This document shows, piece by piece, positions 30,013 through 64,000 of a DNA stretch of 64,000 nt. The first letter of the stretch is position 1. Each line of letters begins with the position of its first letter. The position numbers were made by a program, and so were the translations under genes. The notes under the pieces were generated by a model. That model searched no databases. It saw only the letters and a list, made by a program, of their open reading frames with translations, and was not told where the DNA came from. Source of the stretch: an uncultured Mycoplasmatota bacterium (GTDB taxonomy: Bacteria > Bacillota_I > Bacilli_A > RF39 > UBA660); contig CAMSCJ010000005.1 of assembly GCA_947056845.1 (NCBI GenBank), positions 1 through 64,000 of the forward strand, in the 5' to 3' direction.

Positions 30013-30351
30013 GTGAATTTAGTTGAAAAAATAACTAAAAAGCAAATTCGTACAGATTTACCTAATTTTCAAGTAGGAGATACTATTAGAGTAGATTTAA
30101 AAATTGTGGAAGGAAATACACATAGAATTCAAGCATTTGAAGGAATTGTTATGTCTATTCAAGGATCTGGAATTTCTAAAAACTTTATCGTTAGAAAAAT
30201 ATCTGGTGGTATTGGTGTCGAAAGAACTATTCCATTTAATTCACCAACTATTGATAAAATTGTCGTAGTAAGAAAAGGTAAAGTTAGACAAGCAAAATTA
30301 GGTTATTTAAGAAATTTGAAAAAACAAGCTAAAATTAAGGAAAGAAATTAA
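30013..30351 (+). CDS. rplS: 50S ribosomal protein L19
   Basis: A 112-residue ribosomal protein with the L19 signature: [35 protein letters not shown] and [16 protein letters not shown], ending in the basic [16 protein letters not shown]. The start is GTG after AGGAGAGTG. It follows trmD in the usual block but seems to have its own promoter. A weak hairpin follows before lepB. Confidence 0.97.
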
Positions 30352-30376
30352 TAGGACATTTTTGTCTTATTTTTCG
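30352..30376 (+). terminator. weak terminator or attenuator between rplS and lepB
   Basis: AGGACA pairs with TGTCTT around a short T loop, followed by ATTTTTC. The stem is only six pairs long with one G-T, so read-through into lepB is likely. Confidence 0.5.
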
Positions 30377-30394
30377 TAATTGGGGTAAAAAAAT

Positions 30395-30946
30395 ATGGAT
30401 GAACAAATAAATAATAATATGGAAAGTCAGCATAAACAAGGTAAATTCATGGTTTTTATGAAAGAATTTTTCATTTATTTTCTAATTATTATAACTGTTA
30501 TTTTAATTAGAACGTTTTTAGTAACGCCAATTAGAGTAGATGGTGATTCTATGAATGATACTTTAACAAATGGCGAAATTTTATTATTAAAAAAATATGA
30601 TAAATCGTATGAGCGTTTTGAAGTAGTAGTTTTTAATTATAAAAATGAAAAATTAATTAAAAGAATTATTGGGGTACCTGGTGATCATATTGCTTATAAA
30701 GATAATAAATTGTATATTAATAATAAATACATAGAAGAACCTATGATAGATAAAAAAACTTATGATTTTGATTTAAATCAATTAGGTTTTGATATAATTC
30801 CAGAACATTATTACTTTGTTATGGGGGATAATCGAACTAATTCCAAAGATAGTAGAATGATTGGTCTAATTAGTGAAAAAGATATATTAGGAACAACAAA
30901 CTTTATACTTTTTCCTTTTAACAAGTTAGGAAGTATTAATAAATAA
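30395..30946 (+). CDS. lepB: signal peptidase I
   Basis: A 183-residue membrane enzyme that removes signal peptides. One N-terminal helix (FFIYFLIIITVILIRTFL) is followed by the catalytic Ser in GDSMNDTL (near residue 52), the catalytic Lys in LIKRIIGVPGD (near 90) and the conserved MGDNRTNSKDSR. It is Gram-positive type with a single anchor. It overlaps the next gene by one base. Confidence 0.95.
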   Translation: MDEQINNNMESQHKQGKFMVFMKEFFIYFLIIITVILIRTFLVTPIRVDGDSMNDTLTNGEILLLKKYDKSYERFEVVVFNYKNEKLIKRIIGVPGDHIAYKDNKLYINNKYIEEPMIDKKTYDFDLNQLGFDIIPEHYYFVMGDNRTNSKDSRMIGLISEKDILGTTNFILFPFNKLGSINK

Positions 30947-46695: not shown

Positions 46696-46805
46696 GTGAA
46701 AACATCAACTGTGGTATCGGGATTTAAAGACAACTTTTAACAAAGCTTTATAATTAAAGGGATTAAGTTAGAAAAGTTTTTACACATTTCATCAAAAATT
46801 GAAAG
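46696..46805 (+). repeat. array element, type II, copy 1
   Basis: Contains ATCAACTG, the type II core GGTATCGGGATT and AAAGACAAC, then TTTATAATTAAAGGGATT and AAAAGTTTTTACACATTT. The same blocks in the same order occur at 49899-50040. This is the first element of the array and it lies 12 bp before the second S51 gene. It includes a GTG-started 14-codon frame (KTSTVVSGFKDNF). Confidence 0.7.
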
Positions 46806-47381: not shown

Positions 47382-47471
47382 ATGAAAAAAGAATTGAATA
47401 AAAGTACAGAAAAAAGTTGTTCATCTGTGGGGATAAACTTGTTGATTACGATTTATTTAACCCTCTCATAA
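47382..47471 (+). CDS. short conserved leader peptide of array element A
   Basis: A 29-residue frame ending GINLLITIYLTLS that overlaps the left direct repeat of the element. Other copies read INWLITIYLTP or INWLITIYCNP from an ATG behind a ribosome site. Translation is unproven; the DNA is conserved beyond the stop, so the peptide may be incidental. Confidence 0.3.
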   Translation: MKKELNKSTEKSCSSVGINLLITIYLTLS

Positions 47472-47630
47472 ATACTTTATTTATAAGTATTTCTACGATT
47501 TAACATCTTACATATTTTAATCACACATTGGTTAAAAGTAGCTAAAAATGATAAAATATTATTGAAATTGAATAATTTTGGGGTAAGAATTATCAAGGTG
47601 ATTACACTGTTTAACCCCTGGTAGTAAAAT
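47382..47630 (+). repeat. array element, type I, copy A
   Basis: Left direct repeat GTTGATTACGATTTATTTAA at 47441-47460, right repeat GGTGATTACA...TTTAACCCC at 47597-47619. The 135 bases between them match copies C-F loosely (GATTTAACATCTTACATATTTT). This is the most diverged copy. It lies 26 bp before the RhuM pseudogene. Confidence 0.75.
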
Positions 47631-47655: not shown

Positions 47656-48685
47656 ATGAATAATTTAAGAAATCAGCAGCAGGATATAGTATTTTATAGT
47701 GACGAAGATGAAACATTTAATGTTGAAGTGCTTGTAAAAAATGAAGATGTTTGGCTAAATTCTGAATCGATTGCTAAACTCTTTAAAGTTGGAAGACCTG
47801 CTATTACTAAACAGATTAATAACATTTACGATGATCAAGAATTAGAAGAAAATAGCACATGTTCTATTTTGGAACATATGGGGAATAATGGTAATCAGAA
47901 GTATAAAACAAAATATTATAATTTAGATATGATCATTTCTTTAGGCTTTAGGGTAAATTCTAAAACTGCTATAAAATTCAGAACTTGGGCTAACAAATTG
48001 TTAAAAGATTATATTATTAAAGGATATAATTTAAACGAAGATAGATTTTTAAAAACAAATAAAAGTGATTTAGAATATTTTGATGAATTACTTGAAAAAA
48101 TAAAATTAATCAGAACAAGTGAAAGAATGTTTTATCAAAAAATTACAGATATATTTGCGGAGTGTAGTATAGATATGTAAAAGATAGTGAAGTAGCAAAT
48201 ACTTTTTATAAAACTATCCAAAATAAATTTCACTATGCTATAACCCATCAAACTGCAGCAGAAATTATATATAATAGAGCAGATTCAAATAAAGAATATA
48301 TGGGACTTACAAATTGGAAAAATTAACCAAATGGAAAAATATTAAAAAGTGATGTAAGCATTGCTAAAAATTATTTAGATAAAGAAGAACTAGATGAATT
48401 AAATGATTTATAGTTAATATGTATTTAGATACCGCTGAAAACAGGGCAAAAAGACATATACCAATGAAAATGGAAGATTGGATTAAATCTGTAGAAGATA
48501 TATTTAAAATAAATTTCTATGATAATTTAACTAATAAAGGTACTATAAGTCATAAAGAGGCAGTAGATAAAGCCGAAAATGAATATGAAAAATATAAAGT
48601 TATACAAGATAAAAATTATGTATCTGATTTTGATAAATTACTATTGGATACTGAAAAAATAAAAAGTGGTGGTATGAATGAATAA
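47656..48685 (+). pseudogene. RhuM family protein, broken
   Basis: Aligned with the intact RhuM at 50044, this copy keeps the N-terminal domain (WLNSESIAKLFKVGRPAITK, YNLDMIISLGFRVNSKTA) but shifts frame near 48170, then reads NTFYKTIQNKFHYAI, meets in-frame stops near 48326 and 48413, and resumes in another frame for DWIKSVEDIFKIN and AENEYEKYKVIQDKNYVSDF. At least three lesions make it non-functional as one protein. A 170-residue N-terminal product could still be made. A palindrome at 47849-47870 marks the variable site. Confidence 0.85.
47849..47870. repeat. palindrome in the RhuM pseudogene
   Basis: AATAGCACATGTTCTATT (47851-47868) plus two flanking A/T pairs on each side is symmetric except for one pair. 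It codes residues around NSTCSILE, at the place where the other four array genes also carry a palindrome. Confidence 0.7.
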
Positions 48686-48956
48686 ACATAATATCGAAGA
48701 AATTAAAGAAAAACTAGATAGATGCAAAAATATGAAATTAGAAGATGTAACTTTAGATGAAGTAGATGAAATAAGTTCTATAAAAATAGATAGAAGAAAA
48801 CCAAGTGGGGAGAGAATATTAGATTTTTTAACAAAAGTTAAAAATCCATATATATTTAAAGTAAATGGAAAGTTAGTTAGAATGAGATTTTCAGAAGATA
48901 CCGATTTAACAGCAGATGATTGTTTAACTAGAGTATTGGAAAATTTGTATAGATAG
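48678..48956 (+). CDS. DUF6870-like small protein, copy 1
   Basis: A 92-residue acidic protein: MNKHNIEEIKEKLDRCKNMK, VDEISSIKIDRRKPSGERIL, DFLTKVKNPYIFKVNGKLVR and a tail ending TRVLENLYR. It matches small proteins of Firmicutes mobile elements that I recall as DUF6870 (name moderately sure). No function is known. It overlaps the end of the RhuM pseudogene. Near-identical copies lie at 52946 and, decayed, at 54877, each as cargo of a different cassette. Confidence 0.75.
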   Translation: MNKHNIEEIKEKLDRCKNMKLEDVTLDEVDEISSIKIDRRKPSGERILDFLTKVKNPYIFKVNGKLVRMRFSEDTDLTADDCLTRVLENLYR

Positions 48957-48979
48957 TATTAATATAGGATGGTGATAAA

Positions 48980-49803: not shown

Positions 49804-50035
49804 ACTTGATTACAATTTAATTAACCCATCAATTTTTAGGCAAAACTATAAAAAAATAAGATATTTATATAAAATTATGCAAAAAGGGAGTGCAACAAAT
49901 GAAAAATCGACAAAATTCGACAAATAATATCAACTGAGGTATCGGGATTAAAGACAACCACTAACAAACCCTTATAAATAAATGATTTGCTCAAAAAAAG
50001 TTTTTACACATTTTACGAAAATTAATGAAAAAGAG
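49804..50035 (+). repeat. array element, type II, copy 2 with type I arm
   Basis: 49804-49829 resembles the type I left repeat (TTGATTACAATTTAATTAAC). 49899-49934 is the type I left arm (TCGACAAAATTCGACAA, then ATCAACTG), but the core that follows is type II (GGTATCGGGATTAAAGACAA). From CAAACCCTTATAAATAAA onward it matches type I again briefly, then the type II end (AAAGTTTTTACACATTTTAC). A 12-codon frame MKNRQNSTNNIN starts at 49899. It lies just before an intact RhuM gene. Confidence 0.7.
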
Positions 50036-51569: not shown

Positions 51570-51627
51570 TAATAATCGACAAAATTCGACAATCAACTGG
51601 TTGATTACGATTTATTGCAACCCCTAA
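51562..51627 (+). CDS. short conserved leader peptide of array element C
   Basis: A 21-residue frame with NRQNST and INWLITIYCNP from ATG 51562. The same peptide with the same ribosome-site spacing occurs in copies D and F. Translation is unproven. Confidence 0.35.
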   Translation: MNDNNRQNSTINWLITIYCNP

Positions 51628-51790
51628 GCAAATCCTTATAAATAAAGGAAATTATCAATTTTAGATCTTGCATATTTTCATAATAGAAGAGAAAAAAACA
51701 ATCAAATTAACAAAAATATAGCAAATTTAATGAATTTTATTATAGGAATTAGAAAGGTGATTACGACATTGTAACTCCTTTTATAAAACC
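51562..51790 (+). repeat. array element, type I, copy C
   Basis: TCGACAAAATTCGACAA (51575-51591), left repeat GGTTGATTACGATTTATT at 51599-51616, TCCTTATAAATAAAGGA (51633-51649), TTTTAGATCTTGCATATTTT (51659-51678), TAATGAATTTTATTATAGGA and right repeat GGTGATTACGACATT at 51756-51770. Elements C to F agree over almost their whole length. It lies 19 bp before the DUF1016 gene. Confidence 0.85.
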
Positions 51791-52873: not shown

Positions 52874-52945
52874 ATATAATAATCAAAAATTGCACATTTA
52901 ACATTCATTATATTTGAATATATAATTAGTTTGGGGTGTGATTTA

Positions 52946-53224
52946 ATGAATAAATATAATATCGAAGAAATAAAAGAGAAGTTAGATAGATGTAAGAATA
53001 TGAACTTAGAAGATGTAACTTTAGATGATGTAGATGAAATAAGTTCTATCAAAATAGATAGAAGAAAACCGAGTAATGAGAGAATATTAGATTTTCTAGC
53101 AAAAGTTAAAAATCCATATATCTTTAAAGTTAATGGTAAATTAGTTAGGATTAGGTTTTCAGAAGACACGAATTTAACAGCAGATGATTGTTTAACTAGA
53201 GTATTAGAAAATTTATATAGATGA
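52946..53224 (+). CDS. DUF6870-like small protein, copy 2
   Basis: A 92-residue protein differing from copy 1 at only a handful of positions (NKYNIEEIKEKLDRCKNMN, RRKPSNERILDFLAKVKNPY). ATG 52946 follows GGGGTGTG. It is preceded by a short stretch also found before copy 3 (CACATTTAACATT...), so gene and promoter region were copied together. Cargo of the DUF1016 cassette. Confidence 0.75.
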   Translation: MNKYNIEEIKEKLDRCKNMNLEDVTLDDVDEISSIKIDRRKPSNERILDFLAKVKNPYIFKVNGKLVRIRFSEDTNLTADDCLTRVLENLYR

Positions 53225-53243
53225 TTTTAAGTGAGGAAATTAT

Positions 53244-53709: not shown

Positions 53710-53781
53710 ATGAATAATGATAATCGACAAAATTCGACAAATAATATCAACTGGTTGATTACGATTTATTGCAACCCCTAG
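53710..53781 (+). CDS. short conserved leader peptide of array element D
   Basis: A 23-residue frame (MNNDNRQNSTNNINWLITIY, then CNP) behind GAAGTGAAG. Nearly the same peptide as in element C. Translation is unproven. Confidence 0.35.
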   Translation: MNNDNRQNSTNNINWLITIYCNP

Positions 53782-53945
53782 CAAATCCTTATAAATAAAG
53801 GAATTTAGCGAAATTAGATCTTGCATATATTTGATAAAAAAGAGCAAAAATTACTAAAAAATCATAAAATCATAGTAAATTTAATGAATTTTATTATAGG
53901 AATTTAAAAGGTGATTACGACATTTAAACCCCTTAATAAAAAAGA
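53710..53945 (+). repeat. array element, type I, copy D
   Basis: Same blocks and order as copy C: TCGACAAAATTCGACAA (53723-53739), left repeat GGTTGATTACGATTTATT at 53753-53770, TCCTTATAAATAAAGGA, TTAGATCTTGCATAT, TAATGAATTTTATTATAGGA and right repeat GGTGATTACGACATTTAA at 53910-53927. It lies just before the broken Bro-N gene. Confidence 0.85.
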
Positions 53946-53959
53946 GAGATGGTGTGAAT

Positions 53960-54818
53960 TTGAATAATAAATTAGAGACGATATCAAATCTATTTGAAGA
54001 TATGGAAATAAGAAGTATATGTGATAGTGATAAGGAAGAATACTTTTTTAGTGTGGTTGATGTTATTGTTGCTTTAACTAAATCAGATAGACCACGTAAA
54101 TATTGGAATGATTTAAAGAAAAATTAGAAAATGAGGGAAGTGAGTTGTCCGAAAGAATCGGACAACTGAAATTAAAATCAAAAGATGGTAAATTTTATAA
54201 TCAAGATGTGCTTGATACAAAAGGAATTTTAAGACTTATAGAATCGGTACCAAGTCCAAAAGCTGAGCCTTTTAAATTATGGTTAGCAAATCTTGGTAGT
54301 GAAAGAATAGATGAAGTATTTGATCCTGAAATTGCCATTAATCGTGCAGTAAATTATTATCGTAATAAAGGATATTCTAATGAATGGATTAAGGCTAGAT
54401 TAACAGGAATTGTAGATAGATTTAAACTTACGGACATTTGGAAAGAAGGTGGAATAGAAAAACCAGTTGAGTATGCACTATTAACAAATGAGATTTATAA
54501 AAGTTGGTCTAATATGAAAGCTTCTGAATACAAAGCATATAAAGGCTTAAGAAAAGAATCTTTAAGAGATAATATGACAGATATCAAGGTTCTTTTAACA
54601 GATTTAGGTGAAATTGCTACTCGTGATATAGCAAGAAGCGAACATCCTAAAGGATTGAAAGAAAACTTGAAAGTAGCAAAAAAGGTGGAGAGGTTGCAAA
54701 AGATGCTAGAAAGTCTTATGAAAAGGCAACAAATAAATCTGCAATATCTAAAGACAATGCACTCAATTATCAATATGCCCACGAACAACAAAAAATAGAA
54801 AGTAAAGTTAATGAGTAA
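53960..54818 (+). pseudogene. Bro-N antirepressor-like gene with two one-base deletions
   Basis: TTG start at 53960. Compared with the intact gene at 55965, one A is missing in an A-run near 54117 (frame change after WNDLKKN) and one A is missing in an A-run near 54682 (after ENLKVAK). Restoring both gives a full-length protein ending KIESKVNE at 54818. Everything else is well kept, including GILRLIESVPSPKAEPFKLW and the C-terminal DARKSYEKATNKSA. This could be recent decay, phase variation or a sequencing error in homopolymers. Confidence 0.85.
54143..54167. repeat. palindrome in the broken Bro-N gene
   Basis: Perfect 10-bp arms AGTTGTCCGA and TCGGACAACT around AAGAA. It codes LSERIGQ, the position where the intact Bro-N copy reads LSTKCRQ with a different palindrome. 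Confidence 0.88.
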
Positions 54819-54876
54819 ATTCACACATTTAACATTAATTACGTTTTAATTTATAATTAATTCGGAGTGTGATTTT

Positions 54877-55088
54877 ATGGCTAAATATAATATTGAAGAA
54901 TTAGCAGAGAAATTAGAACGTTGTAAAAATGTAAATTTTGATGATGTAAAATTGGAAGATGTAGATGAATTAACTTCTATAAAAATAGATAGAAGAAAAC
55001 CTAGCAACGAAAGAATATTAGATTTTTTGATACCGATAAAACTGCAGAAGATTGTTTAACTAGAGTTTTAGAAAATCTATATCGATAA
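54877..55088 (+). pseudogene. DUF6870-like small protein, copy 3, internal deletion
   Basis: Begins MAKYNIEELAEKLERCKNVN and runs to ERILDFL, then changes frame. The other frame continues DTDKTAEDCLTRVLENLYR to a stop at 55088, which is the normal end of the family. About 70 bases coding the segment equivalent to KNPYIFKVNGKLVRMRF are gone. Copies 1 and 2 are intact. Confidence 0.85.
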
Positions 55089-55717: not shown

Positions 55718-55945
55718 AGACAATCGACAAAATTCGACAAATATAAATTGGTTGATTACGATTTATTTAACCCCTCTAGCAACCCCCCCCCTTATAAATA
55801 AAGGAATTGAGCGATTTTAGATCTTGCATATTTTCATTAAAAAATAACGAAAATCACTAAAAAATATAAAATCACAGCAATTTTAGTTAAATTTATTGTA
55901 TGAATTAGAAAGGTGATTACGACGTTTAACCCATTAATAAAAATA
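55718..55945 (+). repeat. array element, type I, copy E, with a C9 tract
   Basis: Same blocks as C and D: TCGACAAAATTCGACAA (55724-55740), left repeat GGTTGATTACGATTTATT at 55750-55767, TTTTAGATCTTGCATATTTT and right repeat GGTGATTACGACGTTTAA at 55912-55929. A run of nine Cs (55783-55791) replaces the AACCC or AATCC of other copies. The leader frame has ATA where others have ATG. It lies 19 bp before the intact Bro-N gene. Confidence 0.85.
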
Positions 55946-55964
55946 AGAAAGAAGGTGTTATATT

Positions 55965-56834
55965 TTGAACAATAAACTAGAAACTATTTCAAATTTATTT
56001 GAAGGGAATGAAATAAGAAGTATTTGGGATGCTGAAAATGAAGACTATTATTTTAGTGTGATAGATGTTATTGCCACTTTAACAGAAAGTAAAAATCCAA
56101 ATGATTATTGGTATAGATTAAAAACAAGAATGTCTGCGGAAGAAAAAAGTGAACTATCGACAAAATGTCGACAATTGAAATTGAAATCTAAGGATGGTAA
56201 ATTCCGAGAAACGGATACATTGGATACAAAAGGAATTTTAAGATTAATTGAGTCTGTTCCTAGTCCAAAAGCAGAGCCTTTCAAATTGTGGTTAGCATCT
56301 TTAGGAAGTGAGAGAATTGATGAAGTATTTGATCCTGAAATAGCAGTCAATAGAGCAATAGATTATTATCGAAAAAAGGGATATAGTGATAAATGGATTT
56401 CAGAGAGATTAAATGGGATTTTAAATAGAAAAAAATTAACAGATACTTGGAAAGAAAATGGAATTAATGGAAATTATGAATATGCTATGCTAACAAATGA
56501 AATATATAAAGGATGGTCAGGCATGAAAGCAAGTGAATACAAAGCCTATAAAGGTTTAAGAAAAGAATCTTTAAGAGATAATATGACAGATATTGAAATT
56601 GCTTTGACTAATATTGGTGAAATTGCTGCTCGTGATATTGCTACCTCTGAACGCCCACAAGGTTTAAAAGAAAATATGAATGTAGCCAAACGTGGAGGAA
56701 AAGTTGCAAATGATGCAAGACTTTCTTATGAACAGGAAACAAAAAAATCTGCAATCTCTAATCAAAATGCACTAGGTTATCAATATATAGATGAACAACA
56801 AAAAATAGAAAGCGATGTCTATGATGGAATATAA
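55965..56834 (+). CDS. Bro-N family protein (phage antirepressor-like)
   Basis: A 289-residue protein with a Bro-N domain in the first 110 residues: IRSIWDAENEDYYFSVIDVI, ATLTESKNPNDYWYRLKTRM, then GILRLIESVPSPKAEPFKLW. The C-terminal half (EYAMLTNEIYKGWSGMKASE, YKGLRKESLRDNMTDIEIAL, GEIAARDIATSERPQG) is the usual partner domain of accessory Bro proteins. The start is TTG with GAAGGTG eight bases upstream. A palindrome at 56157-56171 codes LSTKCRQ. It overlaps the recombinase remnant by 14 bases. Confidence 0.9.
   Translation: MNNKLETISNLFEGNEIRSIWDAENEDYYFSVIDVIATLTESKNPNDYWYRLKTRMSAEEKSELSTKCRQLKLKSKDGKFRETDTLDTKGILRLIESVPSPKAEPFKLWLASLGSERIDEVFDPEIAVNRAIDYYRKKGYSDKWISERLNGILNRKKLTDTWKENGINGNYEYAMLTNEIYKGWSGMKASEYKAYKGLRKESLRDNMTDIEIALTNIGEIAARDIATSERPQGLKENMNVAKRGGKVANDARLSYEQETKKSAISNQNALGYQYIDEQQKIESDVYDGI
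56157..56171. repeat. palindrome in the intact Bro-N gene
   Basis: TCGACAAAATGTCGA: perfect 6-bp arms around AAA, with a few more pairs outside. Apart from one inserted G it equals the TCGACAAAATTCGACAA motif of the array elements. Confidence 0.8.
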
Positions 56835-57917
56835 AGTTGGTTCATATATAAGACTTTCTAGAAATGAGAGTTATAGTAATTCTGATAGTATAGATAATCA
56901 AATAAAACTGACTGATTTTTATTGTGAAGAAAATAAGTTAGAAGTAATTGATAAATATATTGATAATGGCTATAGTGGAACAACCTTTGATAGGCCTGCT
57001 TTTAAACAACTTTTAAAAGATATTGATGATGAATATGATAGTTTAAAACATAGTAACATTATGGAAAGGTTAGATGTTCCATTAAAAAATATGATGTATG
57101 ATCACATTGCATATGAAACATCTAATAAAATAAAAAAGTCACTAAGAATAAGTAAAGAAAATGGAAGTTTTGTTGGTTCTTCAGTAATATATGGTTATAG
57201 AAAAGATCCAAACGATTCTCATAAACTAGTTATAGATAATGAAGCTGCGAATGTTGTTAAAGAAATATTTAATATGTATTTGCTTGGTATGACTAAATCT
57301 AAAATTGCAGATGAATTAAATAAAAGAGGAATATTAACTCCAGCATTATATAAAAAATTAATGGTTTGGGTTATACAAAAACTAAAAAAGATAATAAATG
57401 GAATTATGAAATAATAAACAGAATACTTAAAGATGAAAACTATACAGGTACTTTAGTTCAGGGAAAACGAAGAAACGAAAGTTATATTTCTCATAAGGAG
57501 GTTAAAAATTCAGAGGCAGATTGGATTAAGTATGAAAACCATCATGAACCAATTATTGATAAAGAAAAGTTAAAAATCCAAAGAAGAAAAAGTAATAAAA
57601 ATGATATTTTAGATGGATATTTATTTTGTGCTGATTGTGGAGCTCCCATGACACTAGTAAAAGGGAAAAATAAAGAATATTATTATTGTCGAAATAGTTT
57701 AAATAAAAAGATATGTACTAAGCATAGTATTAGAAAAGATTATTTATATGCTGAATTATTAAGATTAATTAATTTAAAGAAATTAAAAAAAGGTAAAATA
57801 AAAGAAATAGATCGAGAATTTCTCGCTAACTTAGTAAATAGTATTATTGTTTACGAGAATAACAAAGTAAATTTGATTTTAAAGCATGAAAGTGATTTTA
57901 TTCAAAATGAAGGGTGA
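56821..57917 (+). pseudogene. large serine recombinase, internally deleted and frame-shifted
   Basis: The N-terminus YKVGSYIRLSRNESYSNSDS keeps the catalytic Ser (YIRLSR), but the text jumps from RPAFKQLLKDIDDEYDSL to the resolvase end (AYETSNKIKKSLRISKENGS), so the segment with the catalytic Arg residues (DLSRLGR) is missing. The frame then shifts near 57360; the other frame continues YEIINRILKDENYTGTLVQG, a zinc ribbon (CADCG...YYCRN) and the C-terminal coiled part. It cannot be active as it stands. It may once have moved the cassette or the neighbouring element. Confidence 0.88.
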
Positions 57918-57923
57918 TGCAAT

Positions 57924-59576
57924 ATGAGATTAAATTATTATTATAATTTTAAAAATACAATAAGATTCTTTATTGATATAGAAAATTTAGATTTTTCTAA
58001 AATTCAACAAGATAAATCATCATGGGTAGAACCTTTTAAATTTAGATTAAGAAAGGATGAAAAATCTTTTAGAACACTACAAATACCAAATATTTATAAC
58101 TTTAAACTAGCCTATGATTATTACAGTAATAGTATTTCCCAATTTGGATATGATTTTGAAAATTTTGAATCTTTAGATTTACACAAAAGAATGAGAATTT
58201 CATATGAGTTAGGGGAATTCAAAGAAAATAGTTATGATGAGTGGCAACTAATAGATTATAATCAATTAATTGATTATGATTTACTTATAAGATGTGATAT
58301 AAAATCTTTTTATGATAATATTTATACACATTATATTTTTAATGATGTTACAAGTGATTTGCATATTGATAAACCATTATCTCATATGAATCATGGGCGT
58401 ACTGGTGGAATAATAATGGGAAATTACATTTCTTTATTTGTTGCTGAATTATTATCTAAAAAAATTAGTTCTAGATTTGAAAAGAGAATTAATGAGTTAG
58501 GTCTTGATTGTAATTTTTCATATTTTTCTGATGATTTTTATATTTTTACTTCTAAGGATAACAAGGATAAGGTGATAAAGTTATTTGACGAAGTATTAGA
58601 AGAATTTGGTCTGGAAAAAAACGAAGATAAACTTGAAGTATTTGATTATTTAAAATATACAAATGAAGATGTTATTGAAAAATATTGGAAAATAATAACA
58701 AGAGAATGTAAGAATCAGCAATATAAACAGGGAATAGAGATTGCTAAAGGTGTACGTAAGTACAATAATAATTTGTTTTTTACTAACCAACTAATATATA
58801 GATTAAATAAACTTGGAGATTATAGAAAAAAAAGAGTATTTATTGTTAATTTTTTCAAAAGTGCCTTTTTTAGAACTATAGATTTTAGGAGTACATACTT
58901 TAATGAGTATAATTATCACCAACTATTATATTTGATTAAAGAATTTCCAGAAATTTCCTTGTATATTGACAATATTTTGGATTCTTTCGATGAGTTTAAA
59001 AGTTTGGATTTTATAAATAAGATTATAAATTTTTATGATAGAAGTTTATCTTCAAATTACCACGATGAACAGTTATATCTTTACTATTTGTTATATAAGC
59101 TTGGTGTAACAGAAAAAGTAAAAAATGATGAAATGAATAAAAAAGTTTTAGATAGTAAGAATTATATTTTAATTTCTTATTACATAGCTAATAGTATGTT
59201 TAACATAGACGAAATAAATACTATCAAAGGTTATTATGATGAGTCTTATTGGTTAGTATATTATTACTTAATATTAAATGATCAAGCACTGTTTAGTGAT
59301 TTAGAAAATTCGGTTAATCAATATTTAATACCTAATTCTGCAACAACTGCTGATGTAAAAAATGCATATAAAGATTTTTACATGGATAATTTAATTGCTA
59401 AAAATGAGATCCTTGTTCCCTTAGGGAATGTCATTAATAATTTAGAAGATTATTTTAATGAAAAATATAAGAAAGAAGACACAGACAAAGAAGCAGAAAT
59501 AGTAGAAACAGAAGAAGTAGTAGAAGCATCAGAAGAAATAGAAGTAGTAGAAGAATTAGAAAATGAACACGTATGA
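57924..59576 (+). CDS. Abi-type reverse transcriptase (AbiK/AbiA/Abi-P2-like)
   Basis: A 550-residue reverse transcriptase with motif A IRCDIKSFYDNIYTHYI (Asp125), motif B TGGIIMGNYISLFVAEL (160-176) and motif C YFSDDFYIF (Asp203, Asp204; FSDD in place of YxDD). The palm resembles AbiK in IxTHxI after motif A and GNxxS in motif B. No maturase, endonuclease or DGR features are present. The C-terminal 300 residues are helical repeats, as in abortive-infection RTs, and a Glu-rich tail (about 515-545) ends the protein. ATG 57924 follows GAAGGGTGA. It probably protects against phage. Confidence 0.85.
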   Translation: MRLNYYYNFKNTIRFFIDIENLDFSKIQQDKSSWVEPFKFRLRKDEKSFRTLQIPNIYNFKLAYDYYSNSISQFGYDFENFESLDLHKRMRISYELGEFKENSYDEWQLIDYNQLIDYDLLIRCDIKSFYDNIYTHYIFNDVTSDLHIDKPLSHMNHGRTGGIIMGNYISLFVAELLSKKISSRFEKRINELGLDCNFSYFSDDFYIFTSKDNKDKVIKLFDEVLEEFGLEKNEDKLEVFDYLKYTNEDVIEKYWKIITRECKNQQYKQGIEIAKGVRKYNNNLFFTNQLIYRLNKLGDYRKKRVFIVNFFKSAFFRTIDFRSTYFNEYNYHQLLYLIKEFPEISLYIDNILDSFDEFKSLDFINKIINFYDRSLSSNYHDEQLYLYYLLYKLGVTEKVKNDEMNKKVLDSKNYILISYYIANSMFNIDEINTIKGYYDESYWLVYYYLILNDQALFSDLENSVNQYLIPNSATTADVKNAYKDFYMDNLIAKNEILVPLGNVINNLEDYFNEKYKKEDTDKEAEIVETEEVVEASEEIEVVEELENEHV

Positions 59577-59607
59577 TATAATTAAATAGTAAAAGGAAGT
59601 GATTTTA

Positions 59608-59700
59608 ATGAGTGAAAATCAAGACAAGGTGTTTAGTAAAACGAGTATCAATTGGTTGATTACGATTTATTTAACCCCTCTATCAAACCCTTATAAATAA
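59608..59700 (+). CDS. short conserved leader peptide of array element F
   Basis: A 30-residue frame (MSENQDKVFSKTSINWLITI, then YLTPLSNPYK) behind AAAAGGAAGTG. The N-terminal part differs from other copies, whereas INWLITIYLTP is kept. Translation is unproven. Confidence 0.35.
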   Translation: MSENQDKVFSKTSINWLITIYLTPLSNPYK

Positions 59701-59840
59701 AGGATTTCTTCGATTTTAGATCTTGCATATTTTTAATAAAAAAGCCCCAAAATCAATAAAAATTGATAAAAACATAGTAATTTTAATGATATTTATAGTA
59801 GGAATTAGAAAGGTGATTACGACATTTAACCCCTACTAAT
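59608..59840 (+). repeat. array element, type I, copy F (last)
   Basis: Left repeat GGTTGATTACGATTTATT at 59654-59671, CCTTATAAATAAAGGA, TTTTAGATCTTGCATATTTT (59715-59734) and right repeat GGTGATTACGACATTTAA at 59812-59829. Unlike the other copies it is not followed by a RhuM, Bro-N, DUF1016 or S51 gene; a promoter-like TATATTATACTATA region and a small gene follow. Confidence 0.85.
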
Positions 59841-60102: not shown

Positions 60103-60132
60103 GAACTGATTATAATGGTCAGTTCTTTTTTT
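60103..60132 (+). terminator. rho-independent terminator before parA
   Basis: GAACTGA pairs with TCAGTTC around a nine-base loop, followed by seven Ts. Confidence 0.85.
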
Positions 60133-60198
60133 ATGCCCATACATAGTCATCTTGTTTATATAAGGTGGCTAGAGTTTAAAAGAAAGGAGGAAATGTTT

Positions 60199-61023
60199 AT
60201 GTCGCAATGCAAAGTAATTGCAGTGGCAAATCAAAAAGGTGGAGTGGGCAAGACCACCACAACTTTTAGTCTAGGTGTTGCTTTAGCAAAGGAAGGCAAA
60301 AAGGTATTGTTAGTAGATACAGACCCACAGGGTAGTCTAACTTTATATATGGGTTGGCGAGATCAAGATAAGTTGCCAATAACAGTAGCAGACTTATTAG
60401 AGCAGTCAGCAGAGGGTAGAAATATTGAAGTAGAAGAATCAATACTTCATCATAACGAAAATGTTTCTTTGATACCATCTAATTTAAGACTGTCAGTATT
60501 AGAGCCAGTTTTGTATAGTGCTATGAGTAGAGAATATTTACTAAAGAATTGTCTGGAAAAAGTAAAGGATAACTATGACTATATTCTTATAGACTGTCCA
60601 CCATCACTAGGAACTTTAACAGTTAATGCTTTAGCAAGTGCAGATAGTGTTATAATCCCAATGCAAAGTCAGTATTTATCAGCAGTTGGAATGACCGAGT
60701 TATTAAAGTCTGTTAATAAAGCAAGAACTAAATTAAATCCACAATTAAAAATAGATGGTGTATTACTAACTTTAGTAGATAAAAGAACTAATCTATCAAG
60801 AGAAATGAAAGTACAATTACAAGAGAACTATGGTAGAGTTATAAAAATTTACGATACACAAATACCTTTAGCAATAAAAACAGCAGAATCAACTTCTACT
60901 GGACAAAGTATTTTTGATTATGACAAAAATGGAAAAGTGGCAGAAGCATATTCTTCATTTGCAAAGGAGGTGCTTGAAAGTGGCAAAGAGCGAAATAAAA
61001 ATGCCTCTACCAAAGTTAGATGA
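60199..61023 (+). CDS. parA: ParA family partition ATPase
   Basis: A 274-residue ATPase with the deviant Walker A KGGVGKTTTT at residues 13-22, DTDPQGSLTLYMG, and IDCPPSLGTLTVNALASAD. ATG 60199 is chosen because AAAGGAGG lies eight bases upstream. It works with ParB to segregate or stabilise an extrachromosomal or excised element. The next gene overlaps it, the usual parAB order. Codon use has more G and C than the array genes, which suggests a separate origin. Confidence 0.93.
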   Translation: MSQCKVIAVANQKGGVGKTTTTFSLGVALAKEGKKVLLVDTDPQGSLTLYMGWRDQDKLPITVADLLEQSAEGRNIEVEESILHHNENVSLIPSNLRLSVLEPVLYSAMSREYLLKNCLEKVKDNYDYILIDCPPSLGTLTVNALASADSVIIPMQSQYLSAVGMTELLKSVNKARTKLNPQLKIDGVLLTLVDKRTNLSREMKVQLQENYGRVIKIYDTQIPLAIKTAESTSTGQSIFDYDKNGKVAEAYSSFAKEVLESGKERNKNASTKVR

Positions 61024-61918
61024 TTTATTTACAACAGAACAAGAAAGGCAAGAAGCCAATTTAGAGAAAGTTGTAGATATTTCAATAGCAGATATTCAAG
61101 ACTTTCCCAACCACCCATTTAAGGTAATTGTAAATGAAGAATTAAATGATATGGCAGACAGTATCAAAAAAGATGGTGTCCAAGAACCTGCATTAGTTAG
61201 ACCACTTGCAAATGGAAAATATCAAATGATTTCTGGACATAGAAGAAAAAAGGCTAGTGAAATAGCCAATAAAGAAACTATGCCCTGTCTTGTTCGAGAT
61301 TTAACGGATGAACAAGCAGCAATTATAATGGTAGATAGTAACTTACAACAAAGACAAAAAATACTATATAGTGAAAAAGCATTTGCCTATAAAATGAAAT
61401 TAGAAGCAATGACTCATCAAGGTAAAAGAAATGATTTAACTTCTGACCAAGTTGGGGAGAAGTTGACATCAGTAGAAAAGTTATCTGCAAAAAGTCCAGA
61501 TAGTAAATCACAAATACAAAGATATATAAGACTTACAGAATTAACAGATAAATTGCTTGATATGGTAGATAATGAAGAAATTGCATTTAGTCCGGCAGTA
61601 GAACTTTCGTATCTTACTGAAGAAGAACAAAAATGGCTTTTAAATAGTATGAGTTGTAATGTTGCTACACCAACTTTATCTCAAGCCCAAGAAATGAAAA
61701 GATTAAGTCAAAGTGGGAAGTTAGATGAAGATAAGATTGAAGAAATTATGAGCCGTGAAAAACCTAATCAAGTTGAAAAACTAAAATTAGATTTTAAAGA
61801 TTTACAACCTAAAATGCCTAAAGGTATGTCGATTACTAATTATGCAGACCATATTTTTAAAGCATTGGACTTTTACAATAGGTATCTTGAAAAACAAAGA
61901 CAACAGGGTGCTAGATAG
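60980..61918 (+). CDS. parB: ParB/RepB-like partition protein
   Basis: A 312-residue DNA-binding protein. The ParB N-domain contains HPFKVIVNEELNDMADSIKK, DGVQEPALVRP and ISGHRRKKASEIA (the GxRR box), followed by the HTH part (KLSAKSPDSKSQIQRYIRL). The start is GTG 60980, with AAAGGAGG nine bases upstream, inside the end of parA. ParB proteins of this length are typical of integrative conjugative elements. No parS-like palindrome was recognised. Confidence 0.9.
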   Translation: MAKSEIKMPLPKLDDLFTTEQERQEANLEKVVDISIADIQDFPNHPFKVIVNEELNDMADSIKKDGVQEPALVRPLANGKYQMISGHRRKKASEIANKETMPCLVRDLTDEQAAIIMVDSNLQQRQKILYSEKAFAYKMKLEAMTHQGKRNDLTSDQVGEKLTSVEKLSAKSPDSKSQIQRYIRLTELTDKLLDMVDNEEIAFSPAVELSYLTEEEQKWLLNSMSCNVATPTLSQAQEMKRLSQSGKLDEDKIEEIMSREKPNQVEKLKLDFKDLQPKMPKGMSITNYADHIFKALDFYNRYLEKQRQQGAR

Positions 61919-61972
61919 TGGGAGTTATTATTCCATTATTCCCCTTCCTACAACCTACCCCTAGTATTTATA

Positions 61973-61994
61973 TACTAACTGTTATTACTAACTG
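61973..61994. repeat. tandem TACTAACTG repeats after parB
   Basis: TACTAACTG occurs at 61973-61981 and again at 61986-61994, and ATACTAAC recurs at 62049-62056. Spacing of 13 bp between the first two could suit a DNA-binding protein. They lie in the region that must hold the promoter of the next gene. Confidence 0.45.
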
Positions 61995-62086
61995 AAAAAA
62001 AATATATATTAGAAATTTACACAAATGCAAAAGAAAATACTTTAGTTTATACTAACATCAACAAATCAAGAAAGGGATGAATTTGT

Positions 62087-62785
62087 ATGAAAAAATTATT
62101 GATTTTAATTAGCATTTTAATTTCTATGACAGGAGGTACAGTTTTCTATTTGCAAGACAAACAAGAAAAGCCAAAACCAGAACAGGTTAATGTTAGTGAG
62201 AAAATCACAGAAGAAAAAGTGGCAGAAGAATCTAAAGGCGAAGAAAACAAAGTAGCAGAAAGTGAAACAATACCAGAAGAAAAGGTTGATGAAGTAAAAG
62301 AAAACAAAAAAGAAGTTAAGTCAGATTCTAAACCAGAAAACAAGAATATTTCTTCGGCTAGTAAAAATGAAGTGAAACAAGAGAAAAAACAAAATAATTC
62401 TGTTTCAAATGAAGTTCCAAAGGAAACTCCGAAAGAAACACCAAAACCAAAAGAAAATAACAATACTACTCCTAGTCAAAAGCCAAGTAATCAACCACAA
62501 AACGGTGGAGCAACTACAAAGTTTTATGAATCAATAACTGGTGGTAAAAAAGAGTTTGCTTCTGATAGTGAAGCGACTGCTCGTGGTAATGAAATTAAGA
62601 GCAAAGAACTGGATTATGTTTTAGATTATAACGAACAACACCCAGAAGCACCGATAAAACCAGATATAAATTATTTTAGGGTGTATCCATCTGTGATAGA
62701 TGAAAACGGTAAAACTTGGTATTATTTGCATTTCTTTTGTGCGAGTGGAGAGGGAAATGACGCAAAATTAAAAAGTATGTATTAG
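62087..62785 (+). CDS. secreted or membrane-anchored Lys/Glu-rich protein
   Basis: A 232-residue protein with an N-terminal membrane segment (MKKLLILISILISMTGGTVF). Residues 22-145 are a low-complexity stalk of Glu, Lys, Pro and Ser (EKVAEESKGEENKVAESETI; PKETPKETPKPKENN). The last 85 residues form a small folded domain (KFYESITGGKKEFASDSEAT, YFRVYPSVIDENGKTWYYLH). It probably spans the wall in the donor cell surface. It lies before the adhesin, with a terminator between. Confidence 0.7.
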   Translation: MKKLLILISILISMTGGTVFYLQDKQEKPKPEQVNVSEKITEEKVAEESKGEENKVAESETIPEEKVDEVKENKKEVKSDSKPENKNISSASKNEVKQEKKQNNSVSNEVPKETPKETPKPKENNNTTPSQKPSNQPQNGGATTKFYESITGGKKEFASDSEATARGNEIKSKELDYVLDYNEQHPEAPIKPDINYFRVYPSVIDENGKTWYYLHFFCASGEGNDAKLKSMY

Positions 62786-62810
62786 TGGCTCTATAAAAGA
62801 GTCATTTTTT
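62786..62810 (+). terminator. rho-independent terminator
   Basis: TGGCTCT pairs with AGAGTCA (one G-T) around ATAAA, then six Ts. Confidence 0.8.
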
Positions 62811-62849
62811 ATGCCCTAATTTTAGGAGCAAGAAAGGAGAAAAACAAAA

Positions 62850-64000
62850 ATGAAAAAAGTATGTATGTGCCTAGCCTTAACGCTAGGTCTTTTAGTTGGC
62901 TTTACTGTTAATGCTCAAGCAGTAAGTGCAGCAACTTTAACAAAAACAAAATCGGGCTATTATTATGACCGAGCAAGAGCAGATGGAACTGACCATCATT
63001 CTTGGTATTTTATGCAATATGAAATGGATGGCGAAGTATCATATTGTATCGAGCCAAATATTCCAGAGGGAACTACTTATAATCCCGGAAGTTGGGAAGC
63101 AACTGGACTTCCAAATGAAATTAAAGAAAGATTATTGTTAATTGGTTACTACGGATATACTTATCCCGGACACCAAACATTACAATATCGTGCTGCTACA
63201 CAAGGAATGATATGGGATATTATCATTGGTCACGGAGCAAACACAACTTTCTCAACAGAAAGATGGGGAGCAGGTACTAACTTTGATGTGTCAGCAGAAA
63301 AAGCAGAAATCAATAGACTAATTGAACACCATTATGATAGACCAAGTTTTGATGGTGGTGTATATAAAGCACAAGTAGGAGAAACAATTACACTAACAGA
63401 TACTAACAATGTATTAGGAAATTATAGTGTAAGTGTAAGTGGTGCTGAATATAGTGTTAATGGAAATACACTAACAATTAAACCTACAAAAAGTGGAAAA
63501 ATTGATTTAACTTTAACAAAAAATATGCCTTATGCTAGTGGCTATAAGTTATTTGTTGGTAATGAAATTCAAAATATGTTCGTTCCGGGAACAACTGATC
63601 CAGTTATGGCAAGAGTTAGAGTAAATAGTTATACAACACCAGTAGAGGGCTATAAACAAGATAACGAAACTGGAACTGCACAGGGACAAGCAACTTTAAA
63701 GGGTGCTGAATACGGTATATACGAAACTGCAACAGGAAGATTAGTAACAACTGTTGTTACAGATGAAAACGGTTACTTTAAAAGTGACGCAGTATTATCT
63801 TGGAATGACTACTATTTACAAGAAATCAAACCAAGCGAGGGTTACGAATTAGATAAAACTCGTTATAATGTAGATGTAAAAGGAAAAGAATCTGCAAGAG
63901 TAGATGTTGTAGAAAAAGTAATTAAAAACTATATTTCTATCTTAAAACAATATGAATATGTTGAGGGAGAAACAAAATTCTTAAATGCAGAAAAAGGTAT
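62850..64000 (+). CDS. thioester/Cna-B-like surface adhesin, partial
   Basis: Starts at ATG 62850 behind AAAGGAGA and runs off the window, with 383 codons visible. The signal peptide is MKKVCMCLALTLGLLVGFTV with an Ala-X-Ala site. The next part is a thioester (TQXA) domain: Cys in VSYCIEPNIPEG near residue 69 and Gln in ATQGMIWDIIIG near 119 can form an internal thioester that bonds covalently to host targets. Beta-sandwich domains follow, including a Cna-B/SpaA-like one (GATLKGAEYGIYETATGRLV-like, SDAVLSWNDYYLQEIKPSEG). Base composition is clearly richer in G and C than the genome before 60 kb. Confidence 0.85.
   Translation, partial: MKKVCMCLALTLGLLVGFTVNAQAVSAATLTKTKSGYYYDRARADGTDHHSWYFMQYEMDGEVSYCIEPNIPEGTTYNPGSWEATGLPNEIKERLLLIGYYGYTYPGHQTLQYRAATQGMIWDIIIGHGANTTFSTERWGAGTNFDVSAEKAEINRLIEHHYDRPSFDGGVYKAQVGETITLTDTNNVLGNYSVSVSGAEYSVNGNTLTIKPTKSGKIDLTLTKNMPYASGYKLFVGNEIQNMFVPGTTDPVMARVRVNSYTTPVEGYKQDNETGTAQGQATLKGAEYGIYETATGRLVTTVVTDENGYFKSDAVLSWNDYYLQEIKPSEGYELDKTRYNVDVKGKESARVDVVEKVIKNYISILKQYEYVEGETKFLNAEKG

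Follow-up and report, generated by a model that had tools for sequence, protein, structure and literature searches.

A predicted UG31-group reverse transcriptase, probably cargo of serial integration at rbgA, in an uncultured Mycoplasmatota bacterium

In an uncultured Mycoplasmatota gut bacterium, a reverse transcriptase (RT) gene stands inside an array of short repeats, and the locus raises the question of what kind of polymerase the gene encodes and how it came to lie there. We analysed positions 1 to 64,000 of the forward strand of contig CAMSCJ010000005.1, a stretch of 64,000 nucleotides that we call the window. The best overall explanation, which we consider likely, is that an intact class 1 UG31 polymerase was brought in as cargo of a serial integration at the gene rbgA, and that this series ends in an ICE. 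The RT gene and its catalytic codons are the following.

57924-59576, + strand: UG31-type Abi/DRT RT of 550 aa, by its RVT_1 match, the RT_UG31 model and a tree, with palm residues D125 and D203-D204 and a C-terminal helical domain
58296-58298, + strand: codon of catalytic Asp125, in motif A CDIKSFYDNIYTH
58530-58535, + strand: codons of catalytic Asp203-Asp204, in motif C YFSDD

In the ORF list the frame runs uninterrupted between exactly these boundaries, and its match to Pfam RVT_1 exceeds the curated cut-off. The product has an RT palm with the catalytic aspartates in motif A (CDIKSFYDNIYTH, residues 124-136, containing D125) and motif C (YFSDDFYIF, residues 200-208, containing D203-D204); a motif D-like stretch, EKNEDKLEVF, occupies residues 231-240. 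When the protein was aligned with seven relatives, D125, D203, D204, N233 and K236 were invariant. A preliminary description made from the letters of the DNA had stated that motifs A and C with FSDD are kept, and this held.

We compared the protein with the PADLOC models, taking the definitions of the UG/Abi classes from PMC13174585 and PMC12632851. RT_UG31 was the best match by a wide margin (E = 1.1e-74, 250 bits, residues 1-489), followed by Drt6 (3.7e-21), Drt3b (6e-15) and Abi-P2 (3e-11). The AbiK model scored 30.6 bits (E = 5e-8), far below UG31, and the protein does not belong to it. An RT-domain tree took in the RTs of relatives, including group II introns, St85-type retrons, a DGR-like set, Abi-P2, Drt3b and Drt8; the introns and St85-type retrons were identified with NCBIfam, and the DGR-like set was labelled by eye. 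The window RT fell in a clade with UG31, Abi-P2 and Drt3b (support 97/90), in agreement with the earlier designation as an Abi-type RT, and apart from the intron, retron and DGR RTs; a position among intron or DGR RTs had been named beforehand as the result that would speak against that designation. Inside the clade it belongs to UG31 subsets supported at 100/99 and 96/86, the latter an inner set of six, while the UG31 group as a whole was recovered with support of only 84/76. We rejected an intron, retron or DGR identity on the basis of the tree, and a group II intron RT also on the NCBIfam group II model, which gave 26 bits against a cut-off of 300. The host genome contains two further RT genes (G000:C2:38069-38758 and C2:17916-18467), the first of which groups with the DGR-like RTs in the tree.

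A profile of seven UG31 sequences, searched against PDB sequences, matched Abi-P2 (1.4e-19), AbiK (6e-16) and Drt3b (1e-14), with retron and intron RTs reaching only 4e-6 or weaker. It aligned to AbiK over positions 34-480 of 513 and to Drt3b over 37-508 of the profile, the helical domain being included in both cases. A profile of the four closest RTs found no relative in the PDB, although the broader one did, and a single-sequence phmmer search with the RT gave only a chance match. The AlphaFold2 model, built from five sequences, was poor (pLDDT 57); it was helical in the C-terminal half, at residues 247-529, where pLDDT was mostly 55-89, and offers sequence and secondary structure rather than a reliable fold. 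Foldseek returned no significant match for it, and we base no structural claim on the model or on Foldseek. The course of the profile through the helical domains of AbiK and Drt3b, together with the helical stretch at 247-529, points to the C-terminal alpha-helical repeat domain that replaces the thumb. The helical half had been called AbiK-like; the likeness in layout stands, but the best assignment is UG31.

Three comparisons define this assignment. The window RT has the domain layout and motifs of RT_UG31 (PADLOC PDLC03770, a UG/Abi (DRT) RT group), but it lies on a divergent branch with the RTs of loci L003, L004 and L005 and is only about 20% identical to the UG31 RT of L027, which lies in a type I restriction-modification locus. 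With the class 1 enzymes AbiK (PDB 7r06) and Abi-P2 (7r08) it has in common the palm motifs D..FY...YTH, G..(x)GN..S...E and xxDD; the N-terminal loop with Tyr44 of AbiK does not align. Drt3b (9z6y) is the class 1 RT of the two-RT system DRT3, but neither a Drt3a partner nor an ncRNA was recognised beside the window gene. We conclude from these comparisons that the predicted product of the gene is an intact UG31 polymerase of UG/Abi class 1, a relative of AbiK and Abi-P2 but distinct from AbiK.

Compared with its homologue in L003 (71-72% identical), the RT shows dN 0.20 and dS 1.8 (near saturation), a dN/dS of about 0.11. The ratio averages over the whole divergence, so that a very recent loss of function would stay invisible. 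It indicates that the gene has been maintained by purifying selection. The C-terminal tail is acidic, with 14 Glu among the last 35 residues, as had been remarked on as unusual. Since the L003 homologue lacks it, the other relatives in the alignment ending short or differently, the tail is a peculiarity of the window copy, and we dropped the idea of a functional domain there.

The polypeptide of class 1 UG/Abi enzymes combines an RT domain with an alpha-helical repeat domain. These enzymes synthesise DNA with no nucleic-acid template, in many cases from a tyrosine of their own as primer; the priming residues are Tyr44 in AbiK and Tyr666 in Drt3b (PMC9508834, PMC13174585). The most likely function of the window RT is accordingly defence of the class 1 Abi/DRT type, with template-free and probably protein-primed DNA synthesis. 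By analogy with AbiK, Abi-P2 and Drt3b, the protein would oligomerise and, upon phage infection, make DNA without a nucleic-acid template, and this synthesis would stop phage growth, probably by abortive infection. The primer could be one of the tyrosines Y5-Y7 in the N-terminal NYYYNFKN, which is among the best conserved stretches in close relatives; these candidates are a guess, because the Tyr44 loop of AbiK does not align. No experimental work on UG31 RTs came up among the papers searched; the group is a candidate for an initial experimental test of class 1 Abi chemistry, for which the window supplies an intact member under selection. Two other UG31-type RTs lie inside or beside type I restriction-modification loci (L027, 7973-9466; L101, 1919-3670, on the Pediococcus plasmid pP134), as expected of a defence gene. 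Searches of viral contigs with the RT yielded one relative (L103). In more distant UG31-like RTs (L025 and L061, genomes G464 and G480), TGA interrupts the frame under the standard code; because the frames are open under code 4, their hosts probably read TGA as Trp.

The array in which the gene lies turned out to consist of small mobile segments stacked one behind another, each of which has integrated where the housekeeping gene rbgA starts. The border of the zone and the junctions are as follows.

30013-30946, + strand: rplS and lepB, the chromosomal left border of the rbgA integration zone, as judged from gene order in relatives
46707-46797, + strand: junction r0, of the type with TG followed by TGGTATCGGG (repeat alignment, junction table)
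47435-47618, + strand: junction rA, worn, AAACTTGTTGATTACG (repeat alignment)
49932-50021, + strand: junction rB, TG followed by AGGTATCGGG, ahead of RhuM (junction table)
51595-51777, + strand: junction rC, TG followed by GTTGATTACG, ahead of DUF1016/YhcG (junction table)
53749-53931, + strand: junction rD, ahead of a broken BRO gene (junction table)
55746-55935, + strand: junction rE, rbgA 5' remnant ...ATAAATTG joined to the left end GTTGATTACGATTTATTTAACCCC...GGTGATTACGACGTTTAACCC (junction table)
59650-59833, + strand: junction rF and the left end of the adjoining ICE (junction table)

Each repeated element of the array is a junction at which the 5' end of rbgA (ylqF, a GTPase gene) is joined to the conserved left end of a mobile element. 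In the repeat alignment a short ORF ends ...NRQNSTNINW LITIY..., and the N-terminus MDNRQNSTNINW YPGHMAKTKR, with which rbgA/ylqF opens in relatives, matches this ORF ahead of the Trp; rbgA is cut within the Trp codon, between INW and YPGHM. When the junctions of the window and of relatives were tabulated, the rbgA start (for example AATCGACAAAATTCGACAAATATAAACTG) stood to the left of a TG. To its right, intact rbgA reads GTATCCTGG, and the array elements read GTTGATTACG, CTTGATACC, AGGTATCGGG, TGGTATCGGG or CTTGCC, the TG being the sole stretch common to all junctions. Serine recombinases have a two-base core, and we infer that the shared TG is such a core. This TG and the position of serine recombinase genes suggest that these enzymes perform the integration. 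A 16-nt motif of the rbgA start, CGACAAAATTCGACAA, has four copies in the window, all within the array, with none expected by chance. Seven junctions follow one another in tandem from 46.7 to 59.8 kb. What had been described as palindromes are thus element ends, and the repeats may have a regulatory role besides.

The same arrangement was found in relatives, where junctions lie directly upstream of an intact rbgA in six loci (L135, which has six of them, L136, L137, L143, L144 and L145). Serine recombinase genes lie immediately upstream of rbgA in L002, L145, L154 and L166 and in the host genome itself, where contig C21 has three in succession. L145 appears to hold a complete element, in the order left end, BRO gene, two genes with no assigned role, recombinase and rbgA. 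A second complete-looking element is that of L002, with a left end, a TPR gene, an RT 72% identical to the window RT, an AAA ATPase (PADLOC candidate PDC-S06), an intact recombinase and rbgA; this RT segment recurs in L003, where a RhuM segment with a left end of its own comes before it. Each incoming element would supply a replacement rbgA start that keeps the gene whole, and the old start would stay behind as a short "leader" ahead of the next element. By repeated integration, at least seven junctions would have accumulated in tandem, with the ICE at the end of the row. The rbgA start ahead of the Trp codon varies widely among genomes, which fits repeated replacement by incoming elements. 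The zone may reach as far as lepB (30.9 kb) through junctions that are now worn, because relatives carry, immediately ahead of rbgA, counterparts of genes that lie here between lepB and the array. Such counterparts, in L136 and L180, were seen for peptidase S51 genes and for an ATP-pyrophosphatase-like gene with its neighbour (46.8-49.8 kb and 35.4-36.6 kb).

Accretion of ICEs, IMEs and CIMEs is known from streptococci, where ICEs integrate at the rbgA 5' end (PMC4701971, PMC7563491) by means of tyrosine integrases and preserve the N-terminus of rbgA (PMC4701971). The array resembles this in its tandem elements with shared att sites, its decayed members, its target at the rbgA 5' end and a gene left in frame. 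It differs in that serine recombinases stand beside rbgA in the window genome and its relatives, in that the junction lies inside a Trp codon of the coding sequence, and in having seven junctions in a row.

The RT lies between the last two junctions, rE and rF, in a segment with the following parts.

55749-59654, + strand: mobile segment with the RT, CIME-like, from junction rE to junction rF
55965-56834, + strand: BRO-N family protein, PADLOC candidate PDC-S13, first gene of the segment (Pfam, PADLOC)
56815-57917, + strand: serine recombinase pseudogene with Resolvase, Recombinase and Zn-ribbon pieces (domain matches, comparison with the recombinases of relatives)
59608-59654, + strand: remnant rbgA 5' end, ATGAGTGAAAATC...ATCAATTG, with its ATG at 59608, apparently once the rbgA start and stranded by the next integration
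60115-64000, + strand: start of the integrated ICE, with ParA, ParB and an adhesin-like surface protein, running past the window end (ORF list, Pfam)

From rE to rF the order is left end, BRO gene, recombinase remnant, RT and old rbgA start. The recombinase had rightly been called decayed: an internal deletion has removed the catalytic-arginine segment and a frameshift lies near 57.4 kb. Its nearest relatives are the intact recombinases of 410 aa that adjoin rbgA in L145 (38%) and L002. The RT had also been placed correctly between the last two elements, but these are integration junctions (at 55746 and 59650) and not palindromes of unknown role. Both junctions match the rbgA start, and the segment, in which the recombinase is a pseudogene, lacks working recombinase and transfer genes. 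With att-type ends, no working recombinase and an apparent tandem position with an ICE, it resembles a CIME as defined in PMC7563491. Site-specific recombination at the Trp codon close to the start of rbgA would have inserted it; its own serine recombinase being dead, the segment would now be mobile only with the help of an intact one, for instance that of the ICE. Behind rF the ICE carries genes for ParA, ParB, a relaxase and a coupling protein. The array lies on contig C5 and the host rbgA with its serine recombinases on contig C21; the link between the two probably runs through the ICE.

We looked at how common such cargo is. RT_UG31 was present in 2 of 196 relatives and BRO relatives in 69, which makes the RT an occasional cargo. 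Most other cargo scanned had no match to named defence systems; defence-like genes were sparse, namely the RT, the AAA ATPase and one TIR-domain protein (L181, by Pfam only). The preliminary description had taken the RT for cassette cargo and the array for a carrier of defence genes. That the RT is mobile cargo is borne out by the second element in L002, but it travels in a serial island at the rbgA 5' end and not in a palindrome-cassette array, and the general movement of defence genes is only weakly supported by a UG31 RT found this rarely. The first gene past the left end was RhuM, BRO-N or DUF1016/YhcG at 21 of 38 left-end-like sites (window 47.4-57 kb, L003 and L135-L145), a count biased by some chance matches among the sites and by loci that were partly fetched via BRO genes. 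This gene started 197-215 nt from the junction at TGATTACG ends and 108-109 nt from it at GGTATCGGG ends. The rbgA arrays could represent an undescribed family of small integrative elements with serine recombinases. They would insert at the Trp codon of the rbgA start and bring a new 5' end for rbgA; in very many cases their first gene would be RhuM, BRO-N or DUF1016/YhcG, set at a constant distance from the element end, and they would gain cargo such as a UG31 defence RT. We propose this tentatively, as a reading that is quite possible but falls short of probable. If it is true, these first genes are often element-maintenance or regulatory genes and not defence genes. RhuM, BRO-N and DUF1016/YhcG are listed by PADLOC as defence candidates (PDC-S05, PDC-S13 and PDC-S02), and a warning is in order that genes listed for their island location may be parts of integrating elements.

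Several other explanations were weighed against this account. The RT might be intact but functionless here, a stranded passenger of a decaying segment, as the dead recombinase beside it and the extra acidic tail of the window copy could suggest; we regard this as unlikely in view of the full-length frame, the retention of all catalytic residues, the dN/dS of 0.11 and the ribosome-binding-like GGGTGAT that precedes the ATG. We judge it quite improbable that the repeats serve the BRO, RhuM and DUF1016 genes as regulatory leader peptides or attenuators instead of being integration junctions. Every repeat does have a short ORF (INWLITIY), and its distance to these genes is nearly constant. However, that ORF is the rbgA start, identical up to the TG and different beyond it, where rbgA goes on with YPGHM; the frame past the TG is not conserved among the copies (rC, rD and rE compared with rF), and elements with other ends (CTTGATACC, AGGTATCGGG, CTTGCC) have only the rbgA side in common.

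The readings that give the RT an RNA template or a part in building the array are weaker. The RT gene has an element left end 74 nt downstream of it, and in L002 and L003 a similar one stands one gene upstream of the RT, which would suit a templated, class 2-like DRT copying a nearby ncRNA, possibly the repeated element of about 200 nt. We hold this to be very improbable. The conserved cis ncRNA of class 2 DRTs was not seen: an Rfam scan of 46-61 kb gave no match, hence no known ncRNA near the RT, and a comparison of its flanks with L002 and L003, which covers few relatives and is not exhaustive, showed no shared element specific to the RT. The only element-sized similarity came from the left end of the mobile element that follows (1e-14); a 47-nt AT-rich match lay upstream and nothing else was significant, so that the conserved flanking ncRNA suggested earlier was not recovered. 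Moreover, the left ends fold as RNA no better than shuffled sequence and occur at many loci without a UG31 RT, and both profile and tree group the RT with class 1 enzymes. It is hardly credible that the RT helps make or move the array as the element's recombination or retrohoming enzyme, even though only 7 bp separate it from the recombinase remnant ahead of it, a junction is close by, and UG31 RTs are found in two independent rbgA elements (the window; L002/L003). Loci without a UG31 RT have arrays with the very same junctions, and most relatives lack such an RT; intact elements have serine recombinases, the RT falls outside the intron and DGR clades, and other UG31 RTs lie in restriction-modification loci, on a plasmid or on a viral contig. 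The earlier notion that the RT acts on the palindromes is not supported, given the same left ends at loci without a UG31 RT and the folding result.

If the RT is an intact class 1 UG31 polymerase carried as cargo, its setting is an example of how genes of this kind are kept and passed on, in segments serially integrated at rbgA with the essential gene kept whole. A small ORF of about 100 aa recurs in the array, with copies at 48618-48969, 52886-53237 and 54817-55087, after the first RhuM gene, the DUF1016 gene and the broken BRO gene. The ICE, past the window (L146, 4386-6308; G000:C5:83385-85307), carries a gene that, judged by eye, may encode a TetM/TetO-type ribosomal protection protein.
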